From Dyadobacter sp. 50-39 (GTDB taxonomy: Bacteria > Bacteroidota > Bacteroidia > Cytophagales > Spirosomataceae): a stretch of 64,000 nucleotides of DNA. The stretch is from contig MKSR01000008.1 of the NCBI GenBank assembly GCA_001898145.1, positions 1 to 64,000 on the forward strand, in the 5' to 3' direction. The position numbers and the translations under genes are program-made. This document shows, in pieces, positions 13,037 through 21,965 of the stretch (the first letter of the stretch is position 1; every line of letters begins with the position of its first letter). Under the pieces are notes generated by a model. That model did not search any database. It saw nothing but the letters and a program-made list of their open reading frames with translations, and was not told the origin of the DNA.

Positions 13037-14149
13037 TTAAGCGACTGCTGCAGTTTCGACTGCAATAGTTTCTACTGCTGCGTGAGCGGGTGTCGTGTTA
13101 GGTTTGAGGGCGATGGGTTCCGGTGTCTCAAAAACGGCGTCGCCTACCACCGGGCCGTTGTGCGAAAGCTCGCTACCTTCTTTTTTGGATTTGAAAATAG
13201 GCCACAAAAACTGGGCGTACCATTCTTCTTCCTGGTAATGCTTGATCCCGTACGAAGTGGGGTATTTGCGGGTGATGATGCCGGTCCCGAAAATAATGTC
13301 CCAAAGGAAAAACATGTTGCCGAAGTTGCCTTTGTAGTAGCCCACTCCGTCGTCGGTCGAGTCGGCATGATGGGCATGATGTGTGGCCGGCGTAGAAATC
13401 AGTCTTTCCAATACCCAGCCGATCGGTTGCAGCCATTTGATCTCGTAAAACGGTTTATCCCAGGGAATACTTGAATGCGCACCGGTGGTAATAAACGATT
13501 TGATCACTTTCACAAACAATGCGGCGTAACCCAGTCCCAGGTAAGTGAGCGCGATGGTCAGGTAGGTTTGCGAGAAAAAGAGCGTATAAATCACATTCTG
13601 CCTGCTTGCCATAGCCATACCCATATAATTGGCGGAATGGTGCGTGCGGTGGAAGCGCCACAGCCAGGGCACCTGGTGGTGCAAACGATGGTACCAGTAC
13701 TGGGTAAGGTCGTCGGCCACGGCGATGATCAGGAATGCCCACCAGAATGGCACCCATTCGAATGCGTTTTTTGCATCGGGCAGGATGAGCGGAAGGAACT
13801 TCAATCCGAAATAGGCGACAAACGGCCTGATAATAAGCTTTGGAATGACGAAGCACACAATGTCCAGAATCCGCTCGTTCTTCGTCCATTTGTTTTCATA
13901 CAAACCCGACGCGAACTCGATCGCGCCGAGCACGAGGATGATTACCGGCAATCCCCAGCTGCTAAGATTTTTGAACACCGCCTCGATAAATGCAGGTGCT
14001 TTAAAAGGAAATTCGTTGCCTCCCTCCCAAGGCCGGTAACCGAATACCTGGAAGCTGGCAAACATCAAAAATATCGGTGCAAGGTATAGCACCACGCTGA
14101 TCAGGCCATCGCGGGTAATTTTCCGGGCCAATACATTATCCAATTTCAT
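13037..14149 (-). CDS. Sterol desaturase/fatty acid hydroxylase family membrane di-iron enzyme
   Basis: A 370-residue membrane protein with several hydrophobic segments and the histidine boxes of this superfamily: HRLHH, HRTHH and HHAHH, preceded by DDLTQYWYHRLHH. These bind two irons and support hydroxylation or desaturation of a lipid chain. The C-terminal ~50 residues are Ala/Thr/Val/Pro-rich and poorly conserved. The substrate is unknown; carotenoid or fatty-acyl hydroxylation is common in this family. A 40-residue membrane ORF lies 34 bases upstream and a structured leader lies before that, so the unit is probably one transcript starting near 14655. A decayed relative lies at 23589-23835. 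Confidence 0.9.
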   Translation of the reverse strand: MKLDNVLARKITRDGLISVVLYLAPIFLMFASFQVFGYRPWEGGNEFPFKAPAFIEAVFKNLSSWGLPVIILVLGAIEFASGLYENKWTKNERILDIVCFVIPKLIIRPFVAYFGLKFLPLILPDAKNAFEWVPFWWAFLIIAVADDLTQYWYHRLHHQVPWLWRFHRTHHSANYMGMAMASRQNVIYTLFFSQTYLTIALTYLGLGYAALFVKVIKSFITTGAHSSIPWDKPFYEIKWLQPIGWVLERLISTPATHHAHHADSTDDGVGYYKGNFGNMFFLWDIIFGTGIITRKYPTSYGIKHYQEEEWYAQFLWPIFKSKKEGSELSHNGPVVGDAVFETPEPIALKPNTTPAHAAVETIAVETAAVA

Positions 14150-14183: not shown

Positions 14184-14306
14184 TCAGATAAAGAATTTCC
14201 ACGCCAGCCAAATGCCGCCGGCGATCAGTACAAAAGGGATGAGTGTAAGTAGTATGCCGACCGCGATCTTCCTCGCGAGCAGCACAACATCTGAGAATGT
14301 GAACAT
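14184..14306 (-). CDS. 40-residue single-pass membrane protein
   Basis: A short ORF whose product starts MFTFSDVVLLARKIAVGIL and has one long hydrophobic segment (about residues 15-37), rich in L, I, A and G, ending in LAWKFFI. It begins with ATG, ends with TGA and lies 34 bases upstream of the hydroxylase on the same strand, downstream of a conserved promoter and leader. Size, composition and position suggest a genuine small membrane protein, perhaps a partner of the hydroxylase. An overlapping longer frame here (81 codons) is Cys/Arg/His-rich and not protein-like. No family is recognised. Confidence 0.55.
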   Translation of the reverse strand: MFTFSDVVLLARKIAVGILLTLIPFVLIAGGIWLAWKFFI

Positions 14307-14361
14307 ATAGACAGTAGTGTAATATTACCGGTTTACTATAAACGCAGCAGAATATGGGCAC

Positions 14362-14454
14362 GGAAATACCCCGGGACAGCACAGCCGGCAACTGAAATCG
14401 CCAACCACCGAAAATTTCAGATGATCAGCCATGACTGTCTGGCGGGGTATTTCC
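14362..14454 (-). promoter_or_regulatory. Structured 5' leader RNA, copy 1
   Basis: Outer arms GGAAATACCCC (14362-14372) and GGGGTATTTCC (14444-14454) are perfect complements and can be extended by one C-G pair. Inside them GACAG (14375-14379) pairs with CTGTC (14435-14439), and a central hairpin on the minus strand (CTGAAAT with ATTTCAG) carries a TTTCGGTGGTTG loop. The second copy at 21083-21165 keeps the loop and the pairing while its arm bases differ, as expected of a conserved RNA structure. It lies 56 bases before the 40-residue ORF. I do not recognise it as a known riboswitch class. Confidence 0.6.
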
Positions 14455-14662
14455 GAGAAATGTCAGAGATAAAACGCCGTTCTCAACAACAGCGACGGGA
14501 ATGATTCCTGGATAAACAAAGCATGAAGGTATGCCCAACCACTTCCCTCAATGGGGCCTTACAAAGTAAATTAACCGCGCTCATATCAAAGATGCCTGGA
14601 TTAATACTCAGCTCAGGGTGGTTCAGGAGCTTTGTTTTTTAATAGTATACTTATTTGATAGA

Positions 14663-14693
14663 CAAAGTAAGATTATTGTTTTTTAAAATGCAA
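14663..14693 (-). promoter_or_regulatory. Promoter of the leader/small ORF/hydroxylase transcript
   Basis: Minus strand: TTG (14693-14691), exactly 20 bases, TTACTTTG (14670-14663). Immediately downstream is TCTATCAAATAAGTA, so TACTT and AAGTA form an inverted repeat over the -7 box. The same arrangement with the same spacing occurs at 21239-21269. Confidence 0.6.
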
Positions 14694-14724
14694 GGGCTCC
14701 CCGCATTTTTCTTGAAATAAAAAA

Positions 14725-14760
14725 ATCCGTGGAGGCAGTAACGCGCTGCCGGCCACGGAT
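14725..14760 (-). terminator. Terminator of the 15764-14814 operon
   Basis: Arms ATCCGTGG (14725-14732) and CCACGGAT (14753-14760) enclose a second stem, GGCAG with CTGCC. On the minus strand the hairpin is followed by a T-run (plus-strand A-run at 14718-14725). Confidence 0.75.
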
Positions 14761-14813
14761 CAGACAGAAAAGGAGCCAGCGGCACCTCTCTGTACATCCT
14801 TATATAAACCAAT

Positions 14814-15719
14814 TTATTTCAACTCGGTAAGCCACTGCTGCGCCAGTGCACGGGCTGTGTTGGTAGGCGTCGCGCCCATACGGTAACAAAACTTCCACAC
14901 GTCGCTTTTGCCTTCGTAGGCTGCATTCACAAACTTTCTGCGGCCATTCGCTTCCTTCGTCTGCGCAGCGAAATCTACGCCTTTGCTCTGGTTGAGGAAG
15001 TCGGTCAGACGTGCAGTGAGCACTTTTTTCGGATCTTTCAACTTCTCGAATTCGTCCGCATTGCTTTTTGCATTCCTGACCAGCGTCTGCTCCGATTGCC
15101 GGATTTCGTCGGCCGCCAGGTACTCTGCATATTGCTTCTTAAACTCCTCCATATTGGTTTTCAAGAGCGGTTTGATCTTTTTGAAAAACGCCGCATTGCG
15201 CTTACCGTCTTCGATCTGCTTCTTGAAATCCGCCCGCTGTTCGGCCGGAATGCTGCTGAGCATGCTTTCCATACCCACAAATGTCTCGGCAGACTCGATC
15301 TGAATGTCCACCACCGGTTCCATATCCTTCGCCTGCAAACCTTGCACACCTTTCAGACGGTTCGCCCGGATTTCCGCTTTACGCTGCTCGCTGACGGTCG
15401 TTTCCAGTTTCGGGTACTTCTTCGCGATCGCCTCGCTATACCTTTTCTGAAAATCCTCCGAATTGAAATACGTTTTCACAAAGGAGCCTGCTTTTCTGAT
15501 CGCAGCCGCCTGAGCTTCGGGTGCCAGCGAACGGCACGCGGATTTGACGGAGCTGCCCAAATACGGCACAGTCACCGATGGCGCTTGTAAACCATTCCAA
15601 AGCCGGTTCTGGATGTCTTTCTGGCTGATTCCATATTCTTCGAACTCGTCGCTGAAAGTGAAATTCAGGAATGCAATGCAGCAAGCGTAAAGGAAAATGG
15701 GTACTATTCTATTTTTCAT
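14814..15719 (-). CDS. Secreted helical hypothetical protein
   Basis: A 301-residue protein. The ATG at 15719 gives a signal peptide (MKNRIVPIFLYACCIAFLN); the frame continues 16 codons further upstream, but that extension would bury the signal. The mature part is Lys/Glu/Ala-rich and mostly helical, with many charged heptad-like stretches (EEFKKQYAEYLAADEIRQSEQ) and few cysteines. It probably acts in the periplasm or on the surface. No catalytic motif or known family is recognised. It follows the small lipoprotein gene by 44 bases and likely shares its promoter. Confidence 0.75.
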   Translation of the reverse strand: MKNRIVPIFLYACCIAFLNFTFSDEFEEYGISQKDIQNRLWNGLQAPSVTVPYLGSSVKSACRSLAPEAQAAAIRKAGSFVKTYFNSEDFQKRYSEAIAKKYPKLETTVSEQRKAEIRANRLKGVQGLQAKDMEPVVDIQIESAETFVGMESMLSSIPAEQRADFKKQIEDGKRNAAFFKKIKPLLKTNMEEFKKQYAEYLAADEIRQSEQTLVRNAKSNADEFEKLKDPKKVLTARLTDFLNQSKGVDFAAQTKEANGRRKFVNAAYEGKSDVWKFCYRMGATPTNTARALAQQWLTELK

Positions 15720-15763
15720 GGCTGTAATTGTAATTAAGGGGTAATGTAGGTAGCGGTTCAGTA

Positions 15764-16189
15764 TCATCGCTTTTCAGCAATCATATCGTAGTCCTGGCCG
15801 TCGAACACGACGAAAATGCTCAGCTTGTTGTCCTTCACAGTTCCTACCTTCTCTGTGCCTTCGTAAATGTCGATCCCCGAGCTGCCGGCGTTTTTCAGGT
15901 TCAGCGTACCAAGGTCCTCGTCGGGCTCGCGATCACCGTCGATCGTCGCCTTGAATTTGCCGGTCAACACTTCCGAGGTAAACTTTTCGAGTTCGATTGT
16001 GATCGTTGCATTGTAATCGTCGAGATCGAAGTCTTCACCGTCAATTTTAAGGTCGGTCACTTTGTAATTTCCTGCCACTTTCGAGCTTAGTTCCGGGGAT
16101 ACGTCCTTGTCTTTTTCTTCGCAAGCGAACATCAGGGTAGAGAGCAGCAACAGAGCAAAAATGTTTTTCAAAAATGTGATCTTTTTCAT
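15764..16189 (-). CDS. Small lipoprotein, lipocalin-like in layout
   Basis: A 141-residue protein with a lipoprotein signal (MKKITFLKNIFALLLLSTLMFAC) and an acidic linker EEKDKD after the cysteine. The remaining ~110 residues alternate short polar and hydrophobic strands (VAGNYKVTDLKIDGEDFDLDDY, LTGKFKATIDGD) like the small lipocalin-type or DUF lipoproteins of Bacteroidota; this is inference from pattern only. The start at 16189 is chosen because the in-frame extension to 16303 has no signal character. A good promoter lies 60 bases upstream. Confidence 0.8.
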   Translation of the reverse strand: MKKITFLKNIFALLLLSTLMFACEEKDKDVSPELSSKVAGNYKVTDLKIDGEDFDLDDYNATITIELEKFTSEVLTGKFKATIDGDREPDEDLGTLNLKNAGSSGIDIYEGTEKVGTVKDNKLSIFVVFDGQDYDMIAEKR

Positions 16190-16247
16190 GGCTGTATTGA
16201 TTAGATATGGGATAATGGATGAGCTGATTTTTTGCCTTCCGACAATA

Positions 16248-16279
16248 CAAAGGTAGCCTGCAGCCGAGCCCGGGATCAA
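16248..16279 (-). promoter_or_regulatory. Promoter of the small lipoprotein operon
   Basis: Minus strand TTG (16279-16277), 21 bases, TACCTTTG (16255-16248), a full match to the Bacteroidota consensus. Start codon 58 bases downstream. Confidence 0.55.
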
Positions 16280-16392
16280 TCCTATAAAAGCATGATTTTT
16301 CAAAATTCATATGTTTATAGGATATTATTAAAAGGTTTTATTTCAGACTTTTGCCACCGTAATTTTCCAATCCATTCTACTCTCCGGACCCG

Positions 16393-18324
16393 ATGAAATT
16401 ATATTTAAGAGCCCTTTTACTGACCTTTTTTTGCAGCCCGGCATTTGCACAAAACCCAGATCCTGCGGCCATTCTGAAACGCATTCAAACCAGCAGGCAG
16501 GATACCAACCGCGTACTCGCCTACATCGAATACGGGCAGTATCTCGAAAACCAGAACCTGGACAGCGCCGGAAAATATTACCTGAAAGCAGATGCCCTGA
16601 GCGAGCAGCTGAACTACGACATTGGCCGGTTCAAGTTCCGCTCGAATTATACCTACATCCTCAATTTGCAGGGAAAATTTGAAGAAGGATTGAAGCTGAA
16701 CCGCGAGAGCCTTGAAATCGCCAAAAGGATGAAGCACCAGGTGAATATCGGCAAGAGCTATGCCAATATCGCCGCGAGTTACACCTATATGGGCAACTTT
16801 ACGGAGGCCATCAAATATTACCAGCAGTCGGCGAGCCAGTTCGACAAGCTGGGTATGAAGGAGTTTTTGCCCCGGCTTTACATCAGCATCGGAACGGCTT
16901 TCGAGCATGCCAATCTGTTCAACAAATCGGTGGTATACAAGCAAAAAGCATTGCAGCTGGCCCGACCGATGAAGGACAGTCTGCAACTCGCGGATATTCT
17001 CACCAATATCGGCGGTTGTTATTTCAATTTAAAAAAATACAATGAAGCCCTCGCGCATTTCAAGGAGGGGCTGGTGGTGTCCGAAAGAATCCATTCGGAT
17101 ATATTCGTAACGCAAGCCTACGCAGGTCTTTGCCGGACCAACCGCCTTTTGAAAAACCTGGACGAAGCCTGGGTATATGGCCAGAAGGGGCTAGACCTGG
17201 CCCGGAAATCAGGGAATGTATTTCTCGAACTTGACTGCCTGAGAGCATTGATGTTCCTGGCCGAGGACGCTAGAAAGACCGATTTGTCGGCCAAATACAC
17301 CAAAGAAGCGCTCACTATTGCGGAAGCCAACAATATGACCGACCATTTGGTAGAACTTTACGAAGATTACGCGACCGACCTCGCCCGCCAGAACAACTAC
17401 AAAGGGGCTTACGACTACCTGATGAAATACTCGATCCTGAACGATTCTATCCAGGGCATCGATATTCAGAAACAGTTACAGGAACTCGATACCAAATACC
17501 TCACGGCGCAGAAGGAGAATAAGATCGTAGCGCTCGAAAAAGAGAAACAGACCCGCAACATATTGATATATGGCCTCATAGCCGGCCTTGTGGGTTTGCT
17601 TGTAATTGCCGTGCTGGTTTACAGGAACATTGCATTCCGCAGACGCGTGGCGGAGCAGGAAGTGCTGCAATTGCAGCAGGAAAAACAGCTGGTGGCTACC
17701 AATTCCATTTTGAAAGGACAAGAAGAAGAACGCACACGCGTGGCCCGCGACCTGCACGACGGTCTGGGCGGACTATTATCAGGCATCAAACTAACTCTGA
17801 ATTCCGTGAAAGGAAATGTAATCCTGCCCGAAGAAAGCGCCATGACGTTTACCAGGGCCCTAACCCAATTGGACGGTGCGATCAGCGAAATGCGCCGCGT
17901 AGCCCACAGCATGATGCCCGAATCGCTTGTACGGTTCGGATTAATCGATGCGCTGAGCGATTTTTGCGAAGGCATCAGCGCTTCCGGTAGGTTAAAAGTA
18001 AATATGCAGGCCTTCGGTTTCGACGACAAACGCCTCGATTCGCAGGTAGAAGTTGTGCTTTACCGCATTATCCAGGAGCTGCTCAACAATGTGCTCAAAT
18101 ATGCCGACGCAAGCGAAGCGCAGGTGCAGCTGACCTGGGTCGAAAACAATGTGAGCGTAACCGTCGAAGACAACGGCAGAGGTTTTGATATTAAAAACCT
18201 TGAACAGAATAAGGGGGCCGGCCTTCGCAACGTCCAGGCCCGCGTGGACTATCTGAACGGCACACTCGACATTCAGTCGAAGCCGGGCGAAGGCACGTCG
18301 GTACTGGTTGAAATAGCGCTTTAA
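16393..18324 (+). CDS. TPR sensor histidine kinase (HisKA_3 type)
   Basis: A 643-residue membrane kinase. Signal peptide at residues 1-19 (ending CSPAFAQ), a periplasmic stretch of about seven tetratricopeptide repeats (about 40-370), one membrane segment (about 390-414), a short coiled coil, then HisKA_3 with the phospho-accepting histidine in RVARDLHDGLGG (about residue 455) and an HATPase_c domain with ELLNNVLKYA, EDNGRGFD and KGAGLRNVQAR. It probably senses a periplasmic or surface condition and phosphorylates the LuxR-type regulator encoded 48 bases downstream. This TPR-kinase form is common in Bacteroidota. Ligand unknown. Confidence 0.95.
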   Translation: MKLYLRALLLTFFCSPAFAQNPDPAAILKRIQTSRQDTNRVLAYIEYGQYLENQNLDSAGKYYLKADALSEQLNYDIGRFKFRSNYTYILNLQGKFEEGLKLNRESLEIAKRMKHQVNIGKSYANIAASYTYMGNFTEAIKYYQQSASQFDKLGMKEFLPRLYISIGTAFEHANLFNKSVVYKQKALQLARPMKDSLQLADILTNIGGCYFNLKKYNEALAHFKEGLVVSERIHSDIFVTQAYAGLCRTNRLLKNLDEAWVYGQKGLDLARKSGNVFLELDCLRALMFLAEDARKTDLSAKYTKEALTIAEANNMTDHLVELYEDYATDLARQNNYKGAYDYLMKYSILNDSIQGIDIQKQLQELDTKYLTAQKENKIVALEKEKQTRNILIYGLIAGLVGLLVIAVLVYRNIAFRRRVAEQEVLQLQQEKQLVATNSILKGQEEERTRVARDLHDGLGGLLSGIKLTLNSVKGNVILPEESAMTFTRALTQLDGAISEMRRVAHSMMPESLVRFGLIDALSDFCEGISASGRLKVNMQAFGFDDKRLDSQVEVVLYRIIQELLNNVLKYADASEAQVQLTWVENNVSVTVEDNGRGFDIKNLEQNKGAGLRNVQARVDYLNGTLDIQSKPGEGTSVLVEIAL

Positions 18325-18372
18325 TGATCGATACCAACGCCAGAAATGGCATTAACCTCTATAAAAGAAATT

Positions 18373-18990
18373 ATGAGCGTCAGAATCCTCATCGTAGACG
18401 ATCACCCGCTAGTTTTGGAAGGGCTTAAATCGCTGCTCGCCGACGCAGAAGGTGTGCGGGTGGTGGGAACGGCCACCAATGCCATCGAAGCGATCGCATT
18501 CCTGAAAAACAACGAAGTGGACATTGCATTCCTCGACATCAACCTGCCCGACATCAGCGGCATTGATCTTTGCAAGAAGGTGAAAGACCAGTTTCCCGAA
18601 GTAAAGACATTGGCATTGAGCACTTTCAACGAGCGTGCGTACGTATCACGCATGATCCAGAACGGGGCGTCGGGCTATCTGATCAAAAGCTCCGGTAAGG
18701 AAGATATCCTGGAAGCCATCGCCCAGGTACAGGCCGGGGGCTATTTCATGAATGTGCAGTTCGATCAGGTAACGCCCACCGCCGCCCCCAAAACGGTTCC
18801 GTTTCTGACTCGTCGTGAGAAAGAGGTGCTGGTGTTGATCGCGGAGGGGCTCACCAATCCTCAGATCGCCGAGCAACTGTTCATCAGCGTGACGACCGTC
18901 AACAGCCACCGTCAGAACCTGCTGATCAAATTTGAAGTATCCAACACCGCCTCGCTGATCAAGCTCGCTGCGGGGTTGGGATTGATCTAG
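18373..18990 (+). CDS. LuxR/NarL family response regulator
   Basis: A 205-residue regulator, partner of the TPR kinase. The receiver domain has the acidic pair DD at residues 9-10, phosphorylation site Asp55 in IAFLDINLPD, the Ser/Thr of LALSTFNE and the Lys of YLIKSSG. The C-terminal LuxR helix-turn-helix is intact (LTRREKEVLVLIAEGLTNPQIA, VTTVNSHRQNLLIKF). I start at the ATG at 18373, which gives the usual short N-terminus before VRILIVDDHPL; a frame extension to 18346 adds nine residues. The stop overlaps the convergent toxin gene by four bases. Confidence 0.95.
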   Translation: MSVRILIVDDHPLVLEGLKSLLADAEGVRVVGTATNAIEAIAFLKNNEVDIAFLDINLPDISGIDLCKKVKDQFPEVKTLALSTFNERAYVSRMIQNGASGYLIKSSGKEDILEAIAQVQAGGYFMNVQFDQVTPTAAPKTVPFLTRREKEVLVLIAEGLTNPQIAEQLFISVTTVNSHRQNLLIKFEVSNTASLIKLAAGLGLI

Positions 18991-19256
18991 CAAGTGCTAT
19001 TTAGGGTAAAACGGCATTGCACAACGATAATCCTACCGTCTTGAATTTTGTACACAAGCCGATGCTCGTCATTAATGCGTCGCGACCAAAATCCCGACAA
19101 CTGATGCCTGAGCGGCTCCGGTTTATCTATTCCCGAGAAAGGAGACTGTGTTATCGACTCCAAAAGCGTTCTGATCCTCCTGATAATCGTTTCGTTGCCG
19201 GTTGATTTCCAATAGTCGAGTTGCGATAATGCCTTGGGAGTAAACTCTATTTCCAT
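18987..19256 (-). CDS. YoeB/Txe family toxin with altered C-terminus
   Basis: An 89-residue RelE-superfamily endoribonuclease toxin. Family features are clear: FTPKALSQLDYWK, PFSGIDKPEPLRHQLSGFWS and RRINDEHRLVY. YoeB normally ends CRYHY or CRFHY, with the final His and Tyr catalytic. Here the end is CRFTLNSTC and the His-Tyr pair is missing. A single inserted base around the TTTT of 19000-19010 would restore a short end at a nearby stop, so the tail looks like the result of a frameshift. The toxin may be inactive or weakened. The gene overlaps the antitoxin gene by ten bases. Confidence 0.88.
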   Translation of the reverse strand: MEIEFTPKALSQLDYWKSTGNETIIRRIRTLLESITQSPFSGIDKPEPLRHQLSGFWSRRINDEHRLVYKIQDGRIIVVQCRFTLNSTC

Positions 19257-19456
19257 ATGTCGTCAAGGCCAATTTTTCGGGTATTACCTTCCCGGGCCTC
19301 TTTGACAGAGTCTAAAAGTTCAGTTTTGTTAGAAGAATTGCTGAGTAGATAGTCTGTGGCATCCTGCTCAGTCCGGAAACTAATCCCGACCGATTTCAGA
19401 AAAGCTTTTACCGTCGCGATCTGATCGTTGTCGCCTTCGATGATCAATGTTGCCAT
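19247..19456 (-). CDS. Antitoxin of the YoeB-type pair
   Basis: A 69-residue protein preceding and overlapping the toxin gene by ten bases, the usual antitoxin-first order. Residues 1-35 look like a small DNA-binding or dimerisation domain (ATLIIEGDNDQIATVKAFLKSVGI), and the C-terminal part is charged and likely disordered until it wraps the toxin (LLDSVKEAREGNTRKIGLDDIWK). It resembles the DUF2683-type antitoxins of Bacteroidota more than Phd/YefM (inference). A perfect -7 box, TATATTTG, lies at 19483-19476 on the minus strand, but no well-spaced TTG was found. Confidence 0.75.
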   Translation of the reverse strand: MATLIIEGDNDQIATVKAFLKSVGISFRTEQDATDYLLSNSSNKTELLDSVKEAREGNTRKIGLDDIWK

Positions 19457-19513
19457 ATCGCATTCAATTGAAAATCAAATATACCAATTTTAATGCAATA
19501 GAAATTGACGTAA

Positions 19514-19547
19514 CACCACCTGACTATCTCCTCGCAATCAGGTGGTG
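19514..19547 (-). terminator. Hairpin downstream of sulfatase gene
   Basis: Arms CACCACCTGA (19514-19523) and TCAGGTGGTG (19538-19547) pair perfectly; the loop is 14 bases. It lies just after the sulfatase stop on the minus strand. The T-run is weak. Confidence 0.5.
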
Positions 19548-19555
19548 CCCTTCAA

Positions 19556-21001
19556 TCAGTTAGTCGCCAAACTCCCGAATGGGAAAATGACCGAGGACAC
19601 ATGGGCCCGGTTCATGATCTGGCCGAGCTCTTTGGCCTTGTCGGGAAACTGGGGTGTAAGATTGCTTCTTTCCTGCGGGTCTTTCGAAAGATCGTAGAGC
19701 TCCACCAATGCATCGGGATTACCGGCCGCCTTCAAGCGGACCGCCTTCCAATTCCCCTGACGCACCGCCTGCCTGCCTCCCTGCTCATGAAATTCCCAAT
19801 ATAGGTAATCGTGTTTCTTCTGTGTGGGCTTGCCTTTTAATGCGTCCGTAAACGAAATGCCATCGATATTGCGGGGAGCAGATGCATTGGCCAGCTCCGC
19901 GAACGTGGGCAAAATATCCCAGAATGCGCCGATATAGTCGCTTTTCGAACCGGGCTTGATCACCGCAGGCCAGCGCACAGCAAAGGGCTCACGGATACCG
20001 CCTTCGTACAAATCGCGTTTCACACCCCTGAAACCCGCGTTGCTGTTGAAGAAATTGGGATCCGCACCGCCTTCAACGTGCGGTCCGTTATCGCTCGTGA
20101 AAATGACCAGCGTATTTTTGTCCAGACCTTTTTCCTTCAGTTTATTCATCACCTGCCCTACGTACTGGTCCAGCCGCGCGACCATTGCTGCAAAAGTTGC
20201 GCGCGGAAAATCCTGCGAGGTATAGCCGCCACGCATTGCGCCCGGGCCGTAGTCTGCACCTTTATATGCCCTTTCTTCAAACTTGCCTTTGTAGTACCTG
20301 AACAGGCTGTCGTCCGGCACCAGCAGTTCCGCGTGTGGAAGAATGTAGGGTAAAAACAAAAAGAAAGGCTGCTTGCCATCCTGGGCATCCATAAAGCTCA
20401 GGGCATTTTTCTGAATGAGATCGGGCGCGTATTCCTTACTGTGCATAAGCCCCTTATTCCCTTCCAACGGTACTTTTTGGCTGTTATCCCAAAGATGTTC
20501 CGGATAGTAACGGTGGGCCAGGCTTTGGCAGTTGTAGCCGTAAAACTTGTCGAAGCCCTGCTTATTCGGATCGCCCTCGGTACCGACAGGCCCAAGGCCC
20601 CATTTCCCGAAAGCCGCCGTCGTGTATCCAGATTTTTTCAGCACCTCCGCAAGTGTCACAACTGAATCGGCAATCGGTTGCTGACCTTCCGGCTCGACAC
20701 TTTTATTACCGCGAATATATGTATGTCCCGTATGCTGACCCGTCAGCAGTGATGACCGCGAAGGAGCGCACACGGATGTACCTGCGTAAAACTGGTTGAA
20801 AATCATACCTTCCGCTGCCAACCGGTCGATATTCGGGGTCTTAATCAGCTTTTGTCCATTGAAACCTACATCGCCGTAACCGAGGTCATCTGCCAGGATA
20901 AATACGATATTGGGTCGTGCCGGTTTAGGTGCCTGTGCCTGGGAATGGTGAGTGAAGAATGATGTGGCTAGGAGGGAAACAACAAAACGATACTTTTTCA
21001 T
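19556..21001 (-). CDS. Secreted sulfatase, family S1
   Basis: A 481-residue exported enzyme. Signal peptide MKKYRFVVSLLATSFFTHHSQAQ. The alkaline-phosphatase-like fold is marked by NIVFILADDLGYGDVG (metal-binding Asp pair) and by CAPSRSSLLTG, where the cysteine of CxPxR is converted to formylglycine. FTSDNGPHVEGG and a C-terminal LYDLSKDPQERSNL are also typical. It removes sulfate esters, probably from a carbohydrate, in the periplasm or outside the cell. A promoter plus structured leader precedes it. The second sulfatase lies 965 bases away, on the far side of a HigBA pair. Confidence 0.95.
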   Translation of the reverse strand: MKKYRFVVSLLATSFFTHHSQAQAPKPARPNIVFILADDLGYGDVGFNGQKLIKTPNIDRLAAEGMIFNQFYAGTSVCAPSRSSLLTGQHTGHTYIRGNKSVEPEGQQPIADSVVTLAEVLKKSGYTTAAFGKWGLGPVGTEGDPNKQGFDKFYGYNCQSLAHRYYPEHLWDNSQKVPLEGNKGLMHSKEYAPDLIQKNALSFMDAQDGKQPFFLFLPYILPHAELLVPDDSLFRYYKGKFEERAYKGADYGPGAMRGGYTSQDFPRATFAAMVARLDQYVGQVMNKLKEKGLDKNTLVIFTSDNGPHVEGGADPNFFNSNAGFRGVKRDLYEGGIREPFAVRWPAVIKPGSKSDYIGAFWDILPTFAELANASAPRNIDGISFTDALKGKPTQKKHDYLYWEFHEQGGRQAVRQGNWKAVRLKAAGNPDALVELYDLSKDPQERSNLTPQFPDKAKELGQIMNRAHVSSVIFPFGSLATN

Positions 21002-21082
21002 TGTGGAGTAGATTAATACACTTCAGAAAGACATTGCAACTCCTGTATTACTTGGATTTGACGCAGTAGCTGTATCTTTGTC

Positions 21083-21165
21083 CCGATACCCTACGACAGT
21101 CCGGTCGACCGGCATGAATTGACAACCACCGAAAATTCCGGCAAGTCGCGCCAGGACTGTCTCTT
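21083..21165 (-). promoter_or_regulatory. Structured 5' leader RNA, copy 2
   Basis: Arms CCGATACCCTA (21083-21093) and TAGGGTATCGG (21155-21165) are perfect complements. Inside, GACAGTCC (21095-21102) pairs with GGACTGTC (21144-21151). The central minus-strand hairpin (GGAATT with AATTC) carries TTTTCGGTGGTTG, matching copy 1 at 14362-14454. It ends 82 bases before the sulfatase start. Confidence 0.6.
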
Positions 21166-21238
21166 AGGGTATCGGAAATCAGATACGTGCTGAATATGGC
21201 GAAGCGGGGGGCTCTTAATAATCTACTTATTCGGTAGA

Positions 21239-21269
21239 CAAAGTAAGAATAAATACTTTGAACAAGCAA
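21239..21269 (-). promoter_or_regulatory. Promoter of the sulfatase leader
   Basis: Minus strand TTG (21269-21267), 20 bases, TTACTTTG (21246-21239), then TCTACCGAATAAGTA. Spacing and sequence match 14663-14693, including the TACTT...AAGTA inverted repeat over the -7 box. Confidence 0.6.
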
Positions 21270-21299: not shown

Positions 21300-21599
21300 T
21301 CAGAGAACTGGTGAAGAAGTGATCCGGTGAACGTTTTGAACACGACCGCTTGCCCTAACCTTCCAGATATCATATTTCTTCTGCATATCCAGCCAAAACT
21401 CCGCACTGACACCAAAACCGCTTTCCAGCCTTACTGCCATTTCAACTGATACGGCTGCCGTCTCATTCACTACCTCGGAAAGCTGCTTGCGGCTCACATT
21501 CAATTCTCTTGCTGCCCGCGTAACGGAAATTCTCATTTCCTTCAATATGTCCTCACGCAATACTGCGCCCGGATGTACCGGCTTCATTTCACTTTCCAT
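21300..21599 (-). CDS. higA: HigA family antitoxin (XRE-type)
   Basis: A 99-residue helix-turn-helix protein of the HigA addiction-module family: HPGAVLREDILKEMRISV, AARELNVSRKQLSEVVNE, then SAEFWLDMQKKYDIWK. It binds the toxin encoded immediately upstream and represses the shared promoter. The order toxin then antitoxin, separated by 6 bases, is the HigBA order. A second, related pair lies at 37141-37761. The C-terminal ~20 residues (VQNVHRITSSPVL) are not conserved between the two. Confidence 0.9.
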   Translation of the reverse strand: MESEMKPVHPGAVLREDILKEMRISVTRAARELNVSRKQLSEVVNETAAVSVEMAVRLESGFGVSAEFWLDMQKKYDIWKVRASGRVQNVHRITSSPVL

Positions 21600-21605
21600 A
21601 ACGCT

Positions 21606-21887
21606 CTAATGATAATCGACATAGTCAACATTGAATACATCACCATTTTCAAACCTGAACAATATCCGGTAATTCCCGGTAACCCAAACAGCCCAAAAAC
21701 CTTCCAGCCTGCCAGACAGCGAATGTAGCCTGTATCCCGGAATTGCTCTGATCGGATCAAGGCTTTTGGCCGTATTCAGTGCCGAAAGAATACGCCTGAG
21801 TTTGTCGACTTGCCCATGCGGCAACTTCGATGCATCATCCTTTTCCCAAAGCTGCTTTAATCCTTTGTGGTTAAAAGTCCTGATCAA
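21606..21887 (-). CDS. higB: HigB/RelE-like toxin
   Basis: A RelE-superfamily mRNA-cleaving toxin of about 93 residues: IRTFNHKGLKQLWEKDD, GYRLHSLSGRLEGFWAVWVTGNYRILFRFENG and the end VDYVDYH, closely similar to the product at 37141. I place the start at the TTG at 21887 because this gives the family N-terminus (M-I-x-x-F-x-H-K-G); the frame is open to another TTG at 21911, which adds eight residues. No ATG is available. The pair sits between two sulfatase genes and has probably inserted there. Confidence 0.85.
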   Translation of the reverse strand: MIRTFNHKGLKQLWEKDDASKLPHGQVDKLRRILSALNTAKSLDPIRAIPGYRLHSLSGRLEGFWAVWVTGNYRILFRFENGDVFNVDYVDYH

Positions 21888-21965
21888 AGTAAAGATAGTG
21901 TGAAACCCCAAGGGTTACAAATATTGGGCAGCAATATGGCTGTTGCTGCCCAAAAACACTATCTC

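Follow-up and report, generated by a model that had tools for sequence, protein, structure and literature searches.

Two copies of a structured leader in a Dyadobacter contig and their place among sulfur-related mRNA leaders of the Spirosomataceae

What does a bacterium regulate by placing the same promoter and the same hairpin loop in front of two different genes? The question arises from contig MKSR01000008.1 of Dyadobacter sp. 50-39 (Bacteroidota, Spirosomataceae), of which we analyzed positions 1 to 64,000, referred to here as the window. Two copies of one module lie on its minus strand, copy 1 before a fatty acid hydroxylase gene and copy 2 before a sulfatase gene; in both, a promoter-like element is followed by TCTAYCRAATAAGTA and then by a long hairpin, hairpin B, with the same loop. 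Hairpin B is selected as RNA, and related genomes place it and its promoter in a sulfur-gene context. From this we infer that the Spirosomataceae have a set of sulfur-regulon mRNA leaders that includes both copies, and we think it somewhat probable that the set forms a cysteine-responsive leader system, working through AACCACC/GGUGGUU pairing, in which hairpin B would be an added module. The features concerned are as follows.

14663..14693, minus strand: copy 1 promoter-like element TTG-N20-TTACTTTG, read directly in the sequence
21239..21269, minus strand: copy 2 promoter-like element TTG-N20-TTACTTTG, read directly in the sequence
14646..14662, minus strand: copy 1 inverted-repeat element TCTATCAAATAAGTATA, where transcription is expected to start
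21222..21238, minus strand: copy 2 inverted-repeat element TCTACCGAATAAGTAGA
14611..14630, minus strand: copy 1 hairpin A, GCTC-CTGAACCACCCTG-GAGC, with AACCACC at 14623-14617
14483..14584, minus strand: copy 1 leader open reading frame (ORF), MSAVNLLCKAPLREVVGHTFMLCLSRNHSRRCC-stop, the last two codons Cys (RRCC-stop)
14537..14542, minus strand: GTGGTT within the copy 1 leader ORF, complementing six A-loop bases
14361..14455, minus strand: copy 1 hairpin B (95 bases), loop GGTGGTT at 14409-14403
21083..21175, minus strand: copy 2 hairpin B (93 bases), loop GGTGGTT at 21130-21124
13037..14149, minus strand: fatty acid hydroxylase superfamily gene (PF04116), the first large gene 3' of copy 1
19556..21001, minus strand: sulfatase gene (PF00884) 3' of copy 2

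The layout agrees in most respects with a first-pass annotation that had pointed out the two copies. TTG and TTACTTTG are 20 bases apart in each (14693-14663 and 21269-21239), and the stretch after the promoter is nearly identical, TCTATCAAATAAGTATA (14662-14646) versus TCTACCGAATAAGTAGA (21238-21222). The outer arms of hairpin B differ between the copies yet stay paired, 14443-14455/14361-14373 being complementary at 13/13 positions in copy 1 and 21165-21175/21083-21093 reading CCGATACCCTA/TAGGGTATCGG in copy 2, and TTTTCGGTGGTTG is exact in both loops. The linker between promoter and hairpin B does differ as described, but it measures about 207 bases in copy 1 and 63 in copy 2, not 200 and 75. 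Hairpin A, with its AACCACC, and the Cys-ending leader ORF lie in the 207-base linker of copy 1 and were not listed in the first-pass annotation; neither was found in the copy 2 leader. Behind the gene upstream of copy 1 stand its own terminator-like hairpin and T-run (about 14718-14760), so the copy 1 module looks like a new unit. The inverted repeat at its expected start is a candidate operator. Taken alone, the 13-mer TTTTCGGTGGTTG is unremarkable, with 4 window matches at up to 2 mismatches versus 2.35 by chance and 18/100 shuffles reaching 4. The combination of GACAGTCNTGGC with AATTTTCGGTGGTTG 8 to 20 bases further on occurs at just the two window sites in the 7.7-Mb genome, and the reversed control gave 0.

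Is hairpin B conserved as a structure? Both copies fold more stably than their shuffles (z-scores of -6.7 for copy 1 and -5.7 for copy 2), of which 0/200 were equally stable. In an alignment of 35 of the 48 distinct sites, 92.1% of 1050 pair cells are paired and 19/31 pairs have changes on both sides. Cells with both-side changes number 179, compared to 61.8 in shuffled alignments and at most 46 with the pairing partner slid, and sliding lowers every measure. The same holds in a more diverse set (47 of 52 sense matches, realigned): 82.4% of 1715 cells are paired, 33/38 pairs have both-side changes, and the cells with such changes number 325, compared to 131.1 shuffled and at most 113 slid. Since the pair lists come from folds of the very sequences aligned (MAFFT sequence alignments), part of the excess of paired cells is expected, and the double-change counts are the stronger evidence for the structure. 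These compensatory changes among homologues bear out the selection on RNA structure that had been read from the two copies. An existing Rfam family was looked for as an explanation and none matched either copy: the window gave 0 matches at gathering scores, and with Rfam 15 at E ≤10 copy 1 gave 0 matches and copy 2 gave 2 sub-threshold matches, nothing credible, the T-box (RF00230) reaching just 11.7 bits (E 2.3, plus strand).

Within the 1050 cells, G·U pairs outnumber A·C 87 to 7, and therefore selection acts on RNA of the same strand as the downstream gene. The same bias led us to reject an antisense reading, in which CAAAGATA after the hairpin would serve as a reverse -7 box. Translation of the hairpin itself (FRWLSIHA or MPEFSVVVNSC) was also rejected, as frames and ends vary by eye among relatives while the bases are constant. 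The loop CGGTGGTTG is identical in 47/47 sequences and the stems vary widely. Many of the 47 were gathered using the loop as pattern, which guarantees its identity there; it is also present in 24/24 sites fetched from model matches, though the model itself rewards the loop. As a separate observation, CAAAGATA is the reverse complement of a TAnnTTTG -7 box and lies a few bases after hairpin B in the window (21073-21080) and in many sulfatase leaders; a T-run takes its place in one sub-group (loci L031, L036, L038, L044, and L067).

How widespread is hairpin B, and which genes follow it? A covariance model built from the 35 sequences finds it in 55/222 genomes of the Spirosomataceae, covering 44/48 Dyadobacter genomes and 8/36 genera of the family. 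A broader model, built from the 47, finds it in 1/395 genomes of a phylum sample (the source genome itself) and in 23/390 genomes of an order sample, all Spirosomataceae. None of the matches listed for these 395 and 390 genomes lies outside the family, with at most nine candidates scored per genome, so that weak or distant members may escape. A scan of the genome collection with ATTTTCGGTGGTTGNCNATT gave 44 stretches, 40 in Dyadobacter, 2 in Rhabdobacter roseus, and 2 taken as chance. Matches in Clostridia and KSB1 (L139 and L173) had weak folds and no promoter and were dropped. Among exact matches to the loop pattern in other genera, genome G133 holds a true relative; those in G160, G163, and G185 have no promoter and seem by eye to lie inside coding sequence, as do those in G166 and G170, judged from the match lines, and all five were dropped.

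At the Dyadobacter loci that were read, hairpin B precedes a sulfatase or hydroxylase of the window's kind, or a TonB-receptor-type gene (L041, genome G074). D. fermentans and D. beijingensis each carry the loop at both kinds of site. We read 24 further sites, 15 in other genera and 9 in Dyadobacter, with 330 bases upstream of each, and a promoter of this kind stands within that distance in 22/24; at L219:10834, two hairpins follow the promoter in tandem, and the site is the second of them. The genes behind these hairpins include metY (L210; TIGR01326 above cut-off), a gene for a YeiH-type putative sulfate exporter (L217; PF03601 above and TIGR00698 below cut-off), sulfatases, substrate-binding proteins, TonB receptors, and hydroxylases, with no clear gene at L208.

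The promoter leads to a larger gene set of the same character. ACTTTGTCTATCNANTNAGTAGA, at up to 2 mismatches, is present in 46/48 Dyadobacter genomes, and the 48 reversed controls together gave a single match; what recurs genus-wide is the -7 part of the promoter and the stretch after it. By eye, the genes behind it at 30 loci encode substrate-binding proteins (14), sulfatases (5), cysteine desulfurase-type proteins (5), redoxin-type proteins (4), a hydroxylase (1), and a TonB receptor-type protein (1). Family searches of representatives concur for sulfatases (PF00884), hydroxylases (PF04116), Redoxin (PF08534), and SusC/RagA (TIGR04056); the desulfurase representative matches PF00266, with all NCBIfam cysteine desulfurase models below cut-off, and the substrate-binding proteins match PF12849 just below its cut-off. 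S-adenosylmethionine (SAM) riboswitches (RF00162) lie directly behind the promoter element in 2/8 loci sent to Rfam (L074 and L086) and behind it in 5/10 of a second batch (L264, L265, L267, L269, and L283), among them a cysteine desulfurase-type locus (L283) and a redoxin-domain locus (L086). Since the promoter element precedes SAM riboswitches and hairpin B precedes metY, the YeiH-type transporter gene, and sulfatases, the earlier guess of a sulfur- or metabolite-responsive leader gains independent support in its sulfur part. Its riboswitch sense fares less well, because a cysteine leader-peptide attenuator is the better match for copy 1.

That fit comes from hairpin A and the ORF behind it. 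In 44/51 aligned A leaders, all bases of the AACCACC-type heptamer lie unpaired in a hairpin loop; copy 1 is one of the 7 exceptions, with the last loop base weakly paired in the fold. An ATG ORF of 12 to 60 residues with at least two Cys in its last seven is present in 36/52 non-redundant A leaders (mean 1.6 and maximum 5 in shuffles), and in 40/52 the 170 bases that follow the A loop contain GGTGG (mean 4.3 and maximum 13), the shuffles in both cases preserving single-base composition only. GGTGG is the second most frequent 5-mer after the A loop in these 52 leaders. It lies inside 30/36 Cys ORFs, and the Cys run begins 26 to 53 bases after it (median, 33.5). Many of the relatives' ORFs finish in CCC or CCCC. 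The source genome itself has two more A leaders, one before a substrate-binding protein (contig C6; ORF ending AYRCCC-stop) and one before a SusC-type TonB receptor (contig C12; ALCCPCC-stop). In one other genus (genomes G101 and G108; L264 and L265), the terminal loop of a SAM-I riboswitch (60 bits; 1528-1620) reads AACCACC; from 1639 onward there follows a leader ORF that contains GGTGG and has QCYC or QCCC at its end. Three leader peptides had no family in NCBIfam.

A leader-peptide attenuator is expected to carry a short ORF with a run of the regulatory codon, ahead of genes in the metabolism of that amino acid. Copy 1 has such an ORF, none was found in copy 2, and the promoter set contains sulfatases, metY, and cysteine desulfurase-type genes. 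Such attenuators also have alternative RNA structures coupled to ribosome position, with a terminator or a sequestered start; here the A loop has alternative partners, and no terminator was identified in the window leaders. Three A leaders have GGTGG-type bases without a Cys ORF: L108 and L120 carry GGTGGTT at the start of the main gene, and L124 has GTGGTTAAC just before the main gene's ATG, versus GTTAACCAC in A. They favor a role for the GGTGGTT bases themselves. At L120 (genome G071), the leader ORF is seemingly fused to the signal peptide of the substrate-binding protein, with the Cys codons lost and GGTGGTT kept.

How could the two hairpins be connected? At 7/7 positions, GGUGGUU in the loop of B complements AACCACC in that of A, and the isolated loop duplex is predicted at -12.5 kcal/mol. 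Hairpin A lies upstream in 16/26 non-redundant B leaders, or 17 with the variant AACCACU in L218, the 26 being counted after removal of a row (L216 at 576) in which GGTGGTTG belongs to a leader ORF and not to a hairpin. The minimum-energy fold of copy 1 combines pairing between A and the ORF with an intact hairpin B. Searched by pattern, A is absent from the four Dyadobacter genomes without B (G066, G070, G095, and G097) and from 4/44 B-positive ones (G051, G055, G086, and G090). A search for A leaders with a sequence model, from which we read 30 loci among the matches listed, the best few per genome, adds candidates in three of the latter. In G051 and G055, where hairpin B stands before no gene but the sulfatase, a TonB-receptor-type gene is preceded by an A-like hairpin with loop TACCACC, and the SAM riboswitch of a cysteine desulfurase-type gene is followed by AACCACC. 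In G086, one leader combines the variant TCCACC with an ORF whose end reads CRCCC-stop.

In the favored cysteine-responsive system, a common promoter would drive the leaders, and a putative sulfur-responsive DNA-binding regulator may act at the inverted repeat over the start site. In many leaders, hairpin A comes next, and then a leader ORF that ends in Cys codons and has GGTGG inside. Under cysteine shortage, a ribosome would halt at the Cys codons, leaving GGUGG, 26 to 53 bases upstream, free to pair with the A loop; with free-running translation, A may pair instead with the B loop further down. Hairpin B, which lies between the leader ORF, if there is one, and the gene, would be an extra module. 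Where a leader has both hairpins, as copy 1 does, the ORF segment and B would be rivals for A, and translation of the leader peptide would toggle the two pairings. Where B stands without A, as in copy 2, its loop would act via a partner in trans or via some other factor. A wider version, in which mRNAs with AACCACC loops, including that of the SAM riboswitch, and mRNAs with GGUGGUU loops kiss both in cis and between mRNAs as a regulon-wide code, with cysteine sensed via leader peptides, seems to us unlikely as a whole.

Several observations weigh against this explanation. B-only leaders, copy 2 included, are its weak point: A is missing in cis from 9/26 B leaders and cannot be the sole partner of B, and no convincing A was seen among the best few model matches per genome in G090, G040, G042, and G145. 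As both loops hardly vary, covariation cannot back the A-B pairing. The B loop is predicted to be only partly open, with unpaired probabilities of 0.17 and 0.23 at its ends, and the centroid fold of copy 1 keeps hairpin A without A-ORF pairing. Exact GGTGG is lacking in 6/36 Cys ORFs, the window's own with its GTGGTT among them, and in the ORFs of some AACCACC leaders the segment reads GGTGGCT or GGTGGGC, so that fewer bases can pair. GGTGG keeps one frame in 29/30 Cys ORFs (NNG-GTG-GNN, with ten different residues before Val), which pairing alone would not require; it may reflect common descent, a coding constraint (x-Val-Gly/Val/Ala/Asp), or a constant position with respect to the stalled ribosome. 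One B site (L209) has no promoter and precedes a periplasmic-binding sensor-kinase-type gene, whose link to sulfur is not obvious.

Could hairpin B be something simpler? It might be the binding site of a protein, or of ribosomal RNA or tRNA, that recognizes the CGGUGGUUG loop, with the complementarity to AACCACC secondary (masking or mimicry, for example). The loop stays fixed while the stems differ widely, some genomes with B show no A, and six B-only leaders found by model and not by loop pattern (L208, L209, L210, L212, L217, and L222) all read CGGTGGTTG. However, A leaders also carry GGTGG repeatedly at places that are not in a hairpin B, a pattern that suggests pairing with A and not just a factor binding the hairpin; we take this alternative seriously while leaning against it. 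Alternatively, the sulfatase mRNA leader or a fragment of it might be a small RNA whose hairpin B forms kissing pairs with AACCACC loops in further mRNAs of sulfur genes. The loop complementarity and predicted duplex suit such a role, as do the absence of A by pattern from the four Dyadobacter genomes without B and the state of G051 and G055, where B stands before the sulfatase only and TACCACC or AACCACC loops stand before other genes. A T-run near the hairpin (at least 5 T in the 36 bases scanned), present in 7/38 copies, points the same way. But the other 31, both window copies included, have none, the T-run of L048 is not adjacent to the hairpin, G051, G055, G086, and G090 have B and no A by pattern, and the best matches in G090, G040, G042, and G145 contain none either. 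Action in trans thus appears doubtful.

Two further explanations rank much lower. The metabolite riboswitch for a sulfur compound, originally guessed for the two copies, would agree with a conserved structure in the 5' leaders of sulfur genes, but hairpin B is a single long hairpin with interchangeable stems whose invariant part is a nine-base loop, neither copy matches Rfam, and other leaders of the set already carry Cys-ending ORFs or SAM riboswitches; to our knowledge, no known metabolite aptamer is a single hairpin invariant just in a short loop. We consider it quite improbable. Still less credible, and very improbable in our view, is an intrinsic terminator or a palindromic DNA repeat with no regulatory RNA. 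The strong stem and the T-runs of one sub-group speak for it. Against it, an intrinsic terminator is marked by a U-run directly after the stem, and T-runs accompany only 7/38 copies of hairpin B, neither window copy among them; a dispersed palindromic element (REP-like or mobile) is not expected to have only 2 copies in the genome, a G·U bias, and a promoter context, and B generally has few copies per genome, nearly always after the same promoter.

Is there a known counterpart? Leaderless short ORFs with polycysteine have been described as cysteine-responsive attenuators in mycobacteria (Canestrari et al. 2020, as cited in the review PMC9031893). The accessible text of that review describes, upstream of cysteine-controlled genes, a short ORF in which Cys codons follow one another directly, as in the leaders here, and makes no mention of a hairpin like B. 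The Dyadobacter ORFs differ in lying about 80 bases into the leader, behind an AACCACC hairpin and mostly with GGTGG inside, and in belonging to another phylum. Within the Bacteroidota, leader-peptide attenuators have been suggested upstream of amino acid biosynthesis operons of Flavobacterium psychrophilum from transcript maps, with no cysteine ORF, AACCACC hairpin, or B-type hairpin named in the accessible part of the source (PMC9723704). The SAM-I riboswitch stands behind the same promoter element within the set and has AACCACC in its terminal loop in two genomes, whereas the window copies give no RF00162 match. Fully complementary 7-base loops recall ColE1, where RNA I and RNA II, antisense transcripts of one locus, form a loop-loop (kissing) pair; unlike there, the A and B loops sit in one leader or in different mRNAs. 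Our literature search, with subscription papers mostly outside it, found no description of this leader system. Copy 1 fits leader-peptide attenuation, a known kind of regulation, and for the loop code and hairpin B no described counterpart was found.

If the explanation is correct, an environmental family of Bacteroidota runs sulfur scavenging by a layered leader made of a promoter element, a cysteine-reading peptide, and a conserved loop-loop code. Such a leader would be a test system for ribosome stalling that steers long-range RNA pairing. The loop and promoter together would also give a bioinformatic handle on genes that are linked to sulfur but have no known function, and the fatty acid hydroxylase of the window may be one of them.

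Some minor observations concern the surroundings of these leaders. Between hairpin B of copy 1 and the hydroxylase gene lies one more small ORF:

14184..14306, minus strand: 40-aa ORF with one hydrophobic stretch

Pfam and NCBIfam gave no match for it, and similar ORFs occur in relatives L032, L059, and L060. In genome G070, which has no hairpin B by model, GGTGGTTGTC lies shortly 3' of the SAM riboswitch before a cysteine desulfurase-type gene (L267). Leaders of substrate-binding proteins (L076, L084, and L101, for example) have a similar stretch, approximately TTTTCACCCTGTTACAT, between the Cys ORF and the gene. On contig C6 of the source genome, a sulfatase-like sequence after the substrate-binding protein is split over frames (L253), through either a frameshift or an assembly error. 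Around the sulfatase of the window, two toxin-antitoxin-like gene pairs were recognized by eye on the minus strand (21300-21911 and 18987-19456), the product of 21300-21599 matching HTH_3 (PF01381); some other genomes have different genes at these places beside the sulfatase.

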